This document shows positions 46,808-49,822 of a stretch of 64,000 nucleotides of DNA, one piece after another. A model generated the notes under the pieces. That model was not told the origin of the DNA. It saw nothing but the letters and a program-made list of their open reading frames with translations, and ran no database searches. Position 1 is the stretch's first letter. Every line of letters starts with the position of its first letter. Origin of the DNA: Paramicrobacterium humi (GTDB lineage: Bacteria > Actinomycetota > Actinomycetes > Actinomycetales > Microbacteriaceae); assembly GCF_900105715.1 (NCBI RefSeq), contig NZ_FNRY01000001.1, positions 682,001 to 746,000 on the forward strand. Reading direction: 5' to 3'. The position numbers and the translations under genes are program-made.

Positions 46808-47341
46808 GTGCTCTCTCTTCGTTCGTGGCGTCCGCAGGACGCGGCCACGTTGCACGATATCGCCGCCGCGACCCGTGACCTCGCCCTGCAGACCGCTGGG
46901 GCGCGGCTCACGACGATCGACGAGTGCGAGTCATTCATCGCGGAGCGACTGCCGTGCACGGCATCCGTCGTCAATCTCGCGATCGCGGAAGACGACGTGC
47001 CCGTCGGGAACGTCGGCCTGAGCAACATCGAATACAGTCACGGGACCGCGTGGGCGTATTACTGGCTCGCGGAGGGAGCACGCGGGCGTGGTCTCGCGAC
47101 GCGGGCGCTCGCGAGCATCGCACAGTGGGCGTTCACCGAACAGGCGCTGCATCGCCTCGAACTCGGGCACCGCGTGAACAATCCGGCCTCGTGCGGCGTC
47201 GCGACGCGGGCCGGCTTCGCGACGGAAGGCGTCGAGCGCGAGAAGCTGCGTTACGGCACCGAGCGCTTCGACGTCGAGCGCCACGCCCGGCTCGCGACGG
47301 ATGCCGCGCCGCAGATCGAACCCATCCGCGTCGAGGCGTGA
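46808..47341 (+). CDS. GNAT-family N-acetyltransferase, RimJ/RimL type
   Basis: A 177-residue acetyltransferase. It begins LSLRSWRPQDAATLHDIA, like the ribosomal-protein-alanine acetyltransferases, and has the acetyl-CoA loop EGARGRGLATRALASIAQWAF near residue 97, followed by ELGHRVNNPASCGVATRAGF near 120. The fold is complete. The acceptor (protein N-terminus or small amine) is unknown. The start is GTG at 46808. Confidence 0.87.
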   Translation: MLSLRSWRPQDAATLHDIAAATRDLALQTAGARLTTIDECESFIAERLPCTASVVNLAIAEDDVPVGNVGLSNIEYSHGTAWAYYWLAEGARGRGLATRALASIAQWAFTEQALHRLELGHRVNNPASCGVATRAGFATEGVEREKLRYGTERFDVERHARLATDAAPQIEPIRVEA

Positions 47342-47408: not shown

Positions 47409-47678
47409 ATGGCGCGGTGGGGCTTGATAGCAGCACCGGCGGGACTTCTGGTGGCCGCCGGTGTCTGGTGGGCCGCAGACGCGATGCTCGCTCAAGCGCC
47501 TCCGGAGCTGGGCGAGAGCATCGTTGTCACGCCGAGCGCGCCATCTCCCCGTCCCACCCCAAGCACCCCGCCGAGCTCGGCGCCTCCCGACGATGGCGCT
47601 CCCACCGCGCCGCCCGCTCCCCCGCCCGACGCGGGCGACGATGACGACGATTATGACGACGACGATGACGACGACTGA
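47409..47678 (+). CDS. Small exported protein with aspartate-rich tail
   Basis: An 89-residue protein. A single hydrophobic segment (LIAAPAGLLVAAGVWWAADA) at residues 6-25 is followed by a Pro/Ser/Thr-rich stretch and a C-terminal run of aspartates with one tyrosine. It probably spans or leaves the membrane, with a strongly acidic tail outside that could bind cations. It overlaps the start of the truncated sensor-kinase gene, so it may have been an accessory to that two-component system. No family recognised. Confidence 0.6.
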   Translation: MARWGLIAAPAGLLVAAGVWWAADAMLAQAPPELGESIVVTPSAPSPRPTPSTPPSSAPPDDGAPTAPPAPPPDAGDDDDDYDDDDDDD

Positions 47679-48121
47679 GCATCATCGCGGCGTGACCGCG
47701 CGCACCCGGATCCTCGCCTGGATCCTCCTGATCCTGACCCTTGCCGTCGTCACCATCGTTCTCGTGACTGGCAAGGCGCTGTTCTCCCGCGTGGACTCGC
47801 AGATCTCGGCCGAGCTCTCACACGAGGCCGAGAAGTTCGGCACATTCGCTCGCGGCGCGGACCCGAGCACGGGCCTCGAGTTCCGCTCGGCTCAGCAGCT
47901 GCTCACGAGCTACCTGACGCACAACCTGCCTGAGCAGAGCGAGACGTTCTTCAGCATCGTCGACGGGGTCGCCGATCGACGCAGCCGGGGCGCACCGCTC
48001 GCGCGCCTCGACCGCGATTCGGCTTTCGTCGCCGACGTCGGCCGTGCGGAAGAGCCGGTCTCCGGTCGCGTCGATACGGGTGCCGGTCCGGCCGAGTACG
48101 CCGTCATCCCGGTCACCGTCC
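47665..48121 (+). pseudogene. Truncated sensor histidine kinase, N-terminal part
   Basis: About 152 codons from ATG 47665. There is a membrane helix (ILAWILLILTLAVVTIVLVT) near residues 15-34, then an extracytoplasmic sensor domain starting FSRVDSQISAELSHEAEKFG and ending near VIPVTVP. At the point where a second membrane helix, HAMP, histidine and ATPase domains should follow, the sequence changes at about 48121 into the end of an unrelated gene in another frame. The kinase frame itself runs on with meaningless sequence to 48684. This is a deletion remnant; no response-regulator gene is next to it. Confidence 0.75.
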
Positions 48122-48361
48122 CTGGATGCCGCGGCCGAAGCGTCCGAAGGCACGACGGGCTCCTTCGCGAAGGAGGCCGTGCGTCGTGCCGTGCTTCGCG
48201 CCGCGCGCGACGAGAGGAACGCGCAGGACCGCGATCTGGAGGCGGTGCTCGCGGAGATGACATCAGAGTCCGAACGGCTGACGCGTTCCCTGCTCGGCTC
48301 GGGCGAGCACGTTCCGGCGGAGGGCGGGATGTTCGAACCGGGCCTCGCGCCCCGCTTCTGA
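48122..48361 (+). pseudogene. C-terminal fragment of another gene, perhaps an AAA+ ATPase
   Basis: An open frame without its own start encodes LDAAAEASEGTTGSFAKEAV, then RRAVLRAARDERN and ERLTRSLLGSG, ending EPGLAPRF. The pattern GTTGSFAKEAVRRAVL resembles the sensor-2 lid helix of AAA+ ATPases of the Cdc48 type, which fits a lost N-terminal ATPase core. A ribbon-helix-helix protein lacking its first strand is the alternative. It adjoins the kinase remnant at base level, and the joint lies at a CTGGATGCCG sequence. Confidence 0.55.
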
Positions 48362-48365
48362 GCGC

Positions 48366-48740
48366 CTACCGCTCGACGCGCACGAGATGCCGAGTGATGA
48401 GGGCGGATGACTCGTCCAATGGGAGCTTGCCCGAGGCCACGCCGATCACGAGATCAAAACTCTCTTCGGTTGTGAACGTGAGCCTGAATCCGTTGATCCA
48501 GAGGAAGGTGCGCATGATCGTCCATGCGCTGCGCTTGTTTCCGTCGATGAGCGCGTGGCTGCGGGCCAACGACTCCAGCAGGGCCGCCGCTTTGTCGTTC
48601 AACCTGGGATATGCGTCCTCACCGAAGACCGACATCGAAGGGCGCACGACCGCCGATGCAAGCAGACCGAGATCGCGCACGTGAAAACCGAGCCGCTTGA
48701 CGACCTGCAGCGCGTCTTCGATCTCCAGAAATTCAGTCAC
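48366..48740 (-). CDS. Doc-type toxin (Fic fold)
   Basis: A 124-residue death-on-curing protein. The Fic motif reads SHALIDGNKRSAW at residues 61-73 with histidine 62, aspartate 66 and NKR at 68-70, the Doc pattern. Doc proteins phosphorylate elongation factor Tu and stop translation. The C-terminal helices (MRTFLWINGFRLTF; ESFDLVIGVASGKL) are complete. The ATG overlaps the stop of the antitoxin gene by four bases, so the pair is translationally coupled and probably active. Confidence 0.87.
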   Translation of the reverse strand: MTEFLEIEDALQVVKRLGFHVRDLGLLASAVVRPSMSVFGEDAYPRLNDKAAALLESLARSHALIDGNKRSAWTIMRTFLWINGFRLTFTTEESFDLVIGVASGKLPLDESSALITRHLVRVER

Positions 48741-48943
48741 GCGTCCGCAAGCCGCTCGAGCAAGGCCGCGTCACGGTCGAGCACATCATCGATCGCCTCG
48801 TCCACGGCGATTCTTCGCGCATGACGCTGAACGACAAGCTCGGCGCCCTGCAGAAGGAGCGCGTGCTTCGAGACATGCTCAGCCGCTGCGAGCTGTTCGA
48901 GCTTGCGATCCAGCGCTTCTGGCAGTCTGACATTTATCGCCAT
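48737..48943 (-). CDS. Ribbon-helix-helix antitoxin
   Basis: A 68-residue protein starting MAINVRLPEALDRKLEQLAA, the strand and first helix of a ribbon-helix-helix DNA-binding fold, with a C-terminal tail (IDDVLDRDAALLERLADA) that would neutralise Doc. Such pairs commonly use this antitoxin in actinobacteria instead of Phd. Its start codon lies within the inverted repeat TACCAGAATGGTA, a likely autoregulatory site. Confidence 0.85.
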   Translation of the reverse strand: MAINVRLPEALDRKLEQLAAAEHVSKHALLLQGAELVVQRHARRIAVDEAIDDVLDRDAALLERLADA

Positions 48944-48975: not shown

Positions 48976-49722
48976 CTAGGGCCGCTGAACGTCCGCCGCC
49001 CTCCGGAACCTCGCGGGAACGTTCCGGAGCCCCCAGAGGGTGACGCGCCACATAGCCTCGAACACGATGCCCGTCGTCATCTTCGACCGACCCTGCGTGC
49101 GCTCGATGAACGTTATCGGCACCTCGACGATGCGCAGTCCGGCGCGGTGAGCGTGCCACAGCATGTCGACCTGGAAGCCGTAGCCCTGGCTGTGCACGTC
49201 GTCTCGGCGGATCCGCCGCAGGGCGTCTGCCGTGAACACGCGGAATCCGCCGGTGACATCTCGGTACGGCAGCCCGAGCACGGTGCGCGCGTAGGCGCTG
49301 CCGCCGCGCGACAGCAGGCGGCGGTGCCAGGGCCAGTTCTCGATGCCGCCGCCCGGAAGCCAGCGCGAACCGAGAACGAGGTCGGCGCCGGCACGCGACG
49401 CTTCCAGCAGAGCGGGCAGCTGCTCGGGCTGGTGCGAGCCGTCGGCGTCCATCTCGACGAGCCGGTCGTAGTCGCGCTCGAGCCCCCACCGGAATGCGTC
49501 AGCGTAGGCGGCGCCGAGACCCTGCTTGCCGGGCCGGTGCAGCACGTGCACGCGCTCATCGGATGCCGCGAGCTCATCGGCGATCAGTCCCGTGCCGTCG
49601 GGGGACGCGTCGTCGACGATGAGAATATCGGCGTCGGGCACCGCCGTGTGCACGCGACGCACGATCGCCGCGAGATTGGCGCGCTCGTTGTAGGTGGGGA
49701 TGAGAACGAGCGTCGCGGTCAC
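48976..49722 (-). CDS. Polyprenol/dolichol-phosphate mannosyltransferase-like glycosyltransferase
   Basis: A 248-residue family-2 glycosyltransferase of the DPM1/Ppm type. It starts VLIPTYNERANLAAIVRRV. The nucleotide-sugar site shows LIVDDASPDGTG near residue 38 and the metal-binding MDADGSHQPEQLP near 90. GSRWLPGGGIENWPWHR and VTGGFRVF are diagnostic of polyprenol-phosphate-mannose synthases, and QGYGFQVDML and FIERTQGRSKM close the domain. It lacks the C-terminal membrane domain of some relatives. It would supply the lipid-linked mannose donor for glycoprotein or lipoglycan synthesis. AAGGGA precedes the GTG. Confidence 0.88.
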   Translation of the reverse strand: MTATLVLIPTYNERANLAAIVRRVHTAVPDADILIVDDASPDGTGLIADELAASDERVHVLHRPGKQGLGAAYADAFRWGLERDYDRLVEMDADGSHQPEQLPALLEASRAGADLVLGSRWLPGGGIENWPWHRRLLSRGGSAYARTVLGLPYRDVTGGFRVFTADALRRIRRDDVHSQGYGFQVDMLWHAHRAGLRIVEVPITFIERTQGRSKMTTGIVFEAMWRVTLWGLRNVPARFRRAADVQRP

Positions 49723-49822
49723 GGCATCCCTTCTGCACCCCTCGCCCACACGATTCGCCAGGCGTGACTTCCAAGCCTACTTCCCGCGACTATGCGGCTT
49801 CGACGCGACCAGGAAGCCGATC

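Follow-up and report, generated by a model that had tools for sequence, protein, structure and literature searches.

Remnants of a sensor kinase and an AAA+ ATPase meet out of frame in a variable chromosomal interval of Paramicrobacterium humi

In Paramicrobacterium humi, the start of a sensor histidine kinase gene gives way within a single base to the end of an unrelated AAA+ ATPase gene, which raises the question of what these two pieces are and how they came to adjoin each other. The window, i.e., the whole stretch of DNA analyzed here, comprises 64,000 nucleotides (positions 682001–746000 of contig 1, C1) of a genome (G000) assembled into two contigs totalling 3.36 Mb. The genus comparison included five genomes, this one and four congeners (G001–G004), and a family sample of 398 genomes was searched. 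Judging from sequence comparison, the two remnants are very probably a pseudogene pair, generated by non-homologous (illegitimate) joining after, or together with, the arrival of a foreign gene. The features of the locus are as follows.

46811–47341, plus strand: GNAT acetyltransferase, the left conserved neighbour (Pfam; DNA synteny with G002–G004, also G001)
47409–47678, plus strand: small gene with an N-terminal hydrophobic helix and an acidic, Asp-rich tail (by eye); it overlaps the kinase start and its open frame is intact
47665–48120, plus strand: sensor histidine kinase remnant, the N-terminal 152 codons with transmembrane helix and sensor domain (homology to the G002, G003 and G004 kinases)
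48120–48124, no strand: the joint (GTC at 48118–48120, unassigned base 48121, CTG at 48122–48124)
48121–48684, plus strand: run-on of the kinase frame past the joint, reading the ATPase remnant out of frame and then doc in antisense; its stop ends at 48684
48122–48131, plus strand: over-represented word CTGGATGCCG, opening the ATPase piece
48122–48361, plus strand: AAA+ ATPase remnant, the last ~80 codons of a ~480-aa protein (38–61% identity to AAA+ C-termini)
48366–48740, minus strand: Doc-type Fic toxin (Pfam Fic PF02661, E 3e-11; NCBIfam TIGR01550 DOC_P1, E 7e-12; G+C 60.5%)
48737–48943, minus strand: ribbon-helix-helix (RHH) antitoxin, 68 aa (Pfam RHH_1 PF01402, E 2.3e-6; G+C 62.3%)
48976–49749, minus strand: family 2 glycosyltransferase, the right conserved neighbour (Pfam; DNA synteny with G001–G004)

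The kinase piece starts with ATG at 47665 and, from GTG at 47692 to 48120, shares 61–65% identity with the kinases of G002, G003 and G004 over 143 of 143 codons. Comparison with these kinases places the last kinase codon at GTC 48118–48120, and the DNA matches end at 48119 for the best congener (G003), 48114 for G004 and 48030 for G002. Where the congener kinases read AVIPVSV or AIIPVSV and then (E or D)GDPATGQ, the window reads AVIPVTV and breaks off. The membrane helix and sensor domain, assigned in the 47665 frame by eye and by homology, are thus those of a kinase N-terminus, and HisKA and HATPase_c do not follow in frame. Pfam detected HAMP, HisKA and HATPase_c in the G003 kinase and none of the three in the remnant; HisKA and HATPase_c are present in locus L029 (7464–8960). 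The whole kinase frames of G002–G004 are 498–536 aa long, with the in-frame upstream stretch included. The small gene overlapping the kinase start has no Pfam family and shares 50% (G003) and 44% (G002) identity with the gene that precedes the kinase in these congeners (tblastn).

On the other side of the joint, alignment with AAA+ homologues begins at codon CTG 48122–48124, in a frame other than that of the kinase, and a single base (48121) separates the two homologies. The switch from kinase N-terminus to AAA+ C-terminus, with a change of frame at about 48121, had been proposed in the first-pass annotation and proved accurate almost to the base. The ATPase remnant runs to a stop at 48359–48361. 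Its assignment is far above chance (best E 2.6e-17 in one genome), and an alignment with five homologues gave 38–59% identity, with 12 columns invariant. In G024, the homologue (479 aa) has its AAA domain (PF00004) at residues 252–373, upstream of the part kept here, so that the remnant lacks this domain and is without a Pfam match. The ATPase homologues continue whole through the joint point. HMMER and tblastn extended the ATPase match 5' of the joint, to 48002 or 47999; we discount the added stretch as arginine-rich frame noise into which the alignment was forced, since in BLAST comparisons with its homologues the remnant begins to match at its residues 17–38 (three of the matches starting before residue 24), with the joint at residues 26/27. 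A Pfam scan of the frame from 47692 to 48684 matched no family. The kinase piece has the features of a pseudogene, i.e., an intact syntenic orthologue in relatives, an abrupt end of homology and the absence of the genes that follow downstream.

What is missing can be read from the congeners. Three of the four (G002, G003 and G004) have a whole kinase at the same place, followed by genes for a response regulator, a DUF4956 protein and a VTC-domain protein. In G003, the order past the kinase is response regulator, DUF4956, VTC, MarR-, EamA- and SDR-like genes and then the glycosyltransferase, the first three being named by Pfam and the MarR-, EamA- and SDR-like genes by eye. The distance from the joint position to the glycosyltransferase match is 5.66 kb in G003 versus ~0.88 kb in the window. 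Brevibacterium renqingii (locus L093, 7986–11736) has the same four-gene module, with identities to G003 of 64% for the kinase, 69% for the regulator, 71% for DUF4956 (residues 1–190 of 298) and 54% for VTC; conservation of the module thus extends beyond the genus, to a second family. A literature search returned no paper joining DUF4956 with the VTC domain.

None of the lost parts sought (kinase core, regulator, VTC gene and the rest of the ATPase) has a close match elsewhere in the genome, and their translocation was accordingly rejected. No close copy of the kinase core was found in the genome; the other kinase matches have 29–35% identity over long stretches, 44% over 113 residues and 37% over 92. 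The regulator has eight matches at E ≤ 1e-20 with 37–42% identity (the best 40–42%), and the G003 regulator shares 93% identity with that of G002 and 91% with that of G004. VTC has no match in the genome at E ≤ 1e-5; DUF4956, MarR, EamA and SDR have none within the window. The rest of the ATPase was not found elsewhere in the genome either, where the best matches reach only 32% and 28% identity. The loss of the kinase core, the response regulator and most of the ATPase, as first suggested, is thus upheld by three syntenic congeners and by the lack of close copies elsewhere.

Loss is one part of this history. The ATPase gene was searched for in all four congeners and is absent from them, and the region 48122–48943 has no DNA in common with the congeners at the same place; the congeners are distant relatives, with 67–82% DNA identity in the pieces that do match and dS mostly near or above 1. 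As the ATPase and the toxin-antitoxin pair are both absent here in the four congeners, gain or replacement is also part of the history, a component that the earlier annotation did not include. The distribution of the ATPase gene in the family is patchy: its C-terminus matched at E ≤ 0.001 in 6 of 39 other genomes of the relatives set and at E ≤ 1e-4 in 51 of 397 other family genomes (52 of 398 with the window's own). A total of 47 of these 51 matches lie in open frames of at least 458 aa, one of them with a TGA inside the match, and four lie in shorter frames of 236–314 aa. The four short frames (in G089, G251, G352 and G384) are possibly truncated copies or contig ends. No common neighbours were apparent in the ATPase neighbourhoods of four genomes, judged by eye from first residues.

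A toxin-antitoxin pair had been noted just past the scar, and it is indeed there: a Doc/RHH pair occupies 48366–48943 on the minus strand and fills the space up to the conserved glycosyltransferase. By sequence it is a Fic/Doc toxin adjoining a small predicted DNA-binding antitoxin, whose frame (48737–48943) has no NCBIfam match. Neither gene has a match in the fetched congener or ATPase loci, and a genome-wide search of the four congeners gave one weak match to Doc, in G002 (40% over 55 residues), at another place. The pair seems to have arrived recently, perhaps independently of the ATPase. The ATPase remnant and doc are convergent, their stop codons lying 4 bases apart (48361–48366).

Comparison shows an ancestral arrangement in which GNAT and the glycosyltransferase would have flanked the kinase, response regulator, DUF4956 and VTC module. 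The Doc/RHH pair and a foreign ATPase gene, either complete or cut beforehand, would then have entered the interval; we infer their arrival from the absence of both at this place in all four congeners. The kinase and ATPase genes would each have been broken and the broken ends joined, at the cost of about two thirds of the kinase gene, over four fifths of the ATPase gene, and all of the regulator, DUF4956 and VTC genes. The order we prefer is insertion of the whole ATPase gene followed by deletion, though the order of steps is itself conjectural. Because the join is out of frame, neither protein should work; the two-component system would have been lost and the leftover frame would be noise.

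The same material could have arrived in another order, with the 3' end of an ATPase gene truncated beforehand, alone or together with Doc/RHH, replacing the kinase-to-SDR interval in one non-homologous event. We regard this course as possible, if somewhat unlikely; it is a variant of the main reading with a different order, and the probabilities we attach to the two overlap. All of 48122–48943 is absent at the congener locus, as such a replacement would have it, the G+C content of the toxin-antitoxin pair is 60.5–62.3% versus 68.2% window-wide, and with so short a gap between the ATPase and doc stops the whole may have arrived as one block. However, the ATPase remnant has a G+C content of 71.3%, unlike the pair, and the fetched ATPase loci gave no Doc or RHH match, so that ATPase and pair do not resemble a single travelling unit.

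Whichever order applies, GNAT and the glycosyltransferase enclose five different gene arrangements in five species. In G001, the acidic gene, kinase, regulator, DUF4956 and VTC are absent here and MarR, EamA and SDR are kept; GNAT lies directly before MarR in this species (L064, 12745–12873), by clean loss or because the module was never gained. MarR, EamA and SDR are absent from the interval in G002. In G004, MarR and EamA are absent and SDR is cut to residues 145–209 of 213 (77% identity), adjoining the glycosyltransferase. This forms a second truncation scar (L030, 5840–6034), between VTC (6169) and the glycosyltransferase (5778). The sole GGATGCC in the surrounding 700 bases is on the other strand, ~175 bases into the SDR remnant, and none lies at the start of that scar.

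This motif matters because the first-pass annotation had the joint carrying an over-represented word, CTGGATGCCG, at which recombination could have removed the missing genes. The word is present, and its location needs correction: it belongs to the start of the ATPase piece, not to the kinase part, with the GGATGCC copy starting at 48124. Its over-representation is clear, as the 10-mer CTGGATGCCG occurs 112 times in the genome versus 16 for a reversed control, and, counting both strands of the window, GGATGCC occurs 69 times (~1.1 per kb) versus 8. A random joint in the window would have GGATGCC within 3 bases in 1.5% of cases and within 5 bases in 1.9%. The proximity of word and joint is therefore suggestive and mildly unusual, but it is a one-sided, post hoc observation.

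A word-mediated deletion would be a homologous exchange between copies of GGATGCC (or the 10-mer) in the kinase and ATPase genes, for which 7–10 bases are short if the exchange is RecA-dependent. The kinase genes of G002, G003 and G004 contain no sense-orientation GGATGCC anywhere and read GA(C/G)GG(C/T)GACCC at the joint position; copies in the opposite orientation (two in G003, one in G002) lie away from the joint, and the Brevibacterium kinase has no copy in either orientation. On the ATPase side, 32 of 34 loci could be placed (L038 and L083 could not), and 0 of 32 have the word at the matching codon; one of them (L089) has GGATGCC one codon further on. Three homologues read CGATGCC at the matching place, which differs from the word by a single base; the copy at the joint may accordingly have arisen by drift within the ATPase gene or been created by the join. 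Sense copies do occur downstream of the joint position in the congener intervals (three in G003, one in G004 and two in G002); right-hand repeat partners would have been available, and a left partner was not seen. A direct repeat on both parental sides was thus not detected in these relatives, which stand in for the true parents. With no copy at the joint in four kinases and none at the matching codon of the ATPases, recombination at the word is not supported as the cause, the expectation that GGATGCC copies would bound the deletion on both sides did not hold in the relatives, and we consider such an exchange very unlikely.

The timing of the break bears on whether the kinase piece may still serve a purpose. 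Divergence was estimated by simple Nei–Gojobori counts of dN and dS, in which dS was 0.7–1.6, near saturation. The dN of the GNAT gene is 0.29–0.31 between G000 and its congeners and 0.07–0.13 among the congeners; that of the sensor half is 0.28–0.30 and 0.04–0.12, respectively. The relative-rate argument rests on this one neighbour gene, and the glycosyltransferase does not separate G000 (dN 0.15–0.17 to the others and 0.14–0.16 among them; four species, G003 left out). No decay is apparent in the sensor half, whose frame remains open. Since this half has diverged no faster than GNAT, either the break is recent or the piece is still constrained, and we prefer the former: the break looks recent relative to the species split.

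An open sensor half with unhurried divergence, in a frame that stays open to 48684, could also point to a working stand-alone sensor or decoy, with its membrane helix, sensor domain and new basic tail. The tail, however, reads the ATPase end out of frame and doc in antisense, Pfam gives no match, and the two pieces are adjacent in no other genome of the 398-genome sample, so we judge a functional product of this kind exceedingly improbable. We give equally little credence to selection having kept the sensor half as a kinase-less membrane sensor with a tail made of the out-of-frame ATPase end and the antisense toxin gene. An old fused layout common to relatives, which would have spoken against a deletion scar as first proposed, was looked for and not seen in the same family sample, where the ATPase end and the sensor domain co-occur in one other genome only (G227, on separate contigs). 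An assembly error joining two distant genome pieces is scarcely believable: the assembly does consist of two contigs, but no other place in the genome contains the kinase core or the rest of the ATPase, and the congeners show synteny on either side of the locus, so that a mis-join would also require lost sequence.

Illegitimate joining thus remains the preferred reading, and it places the locus among familiar ones, as truncated-gene scars (pseudogenes) arise by illegitimate recombination in bacterial chromosomes. Like such scars, it has abrupt ends of two unrelated genes, a frame change, missing genes between them and no common repeat seen at the joint; there is no difference in kind, except that here both partners are remnants and the ATPase is itself patchy in distribution. 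Relative to the module of G002–G004 and B. renqingii, the sensor half (47692–48120) is orthologous in place and sequence, whereas HAMP, HisKA and HATPase_c are lacking, as are the regulator and the two genes after it. With the 479-aa AAA+ ATPase of G024 the window has the C-terminal ~80 codons in common, and the AAA domain is missing.

The locus is an ordinary scar, in which a two-component module was lost by non-homologous joining in an interval that is turning over in the genus. It lends no support to the over-represented word driving deletions. For annotation, the frames 47665–48684 and 48044–48361 should be labelled pseudogenes rather than a fused kinase-ATPase. The species is without a two-component module that three of the four congeners compared have kept and, as gene content differs across the five species, the interval is a small natural record of non-homologous joins reshaping one place.
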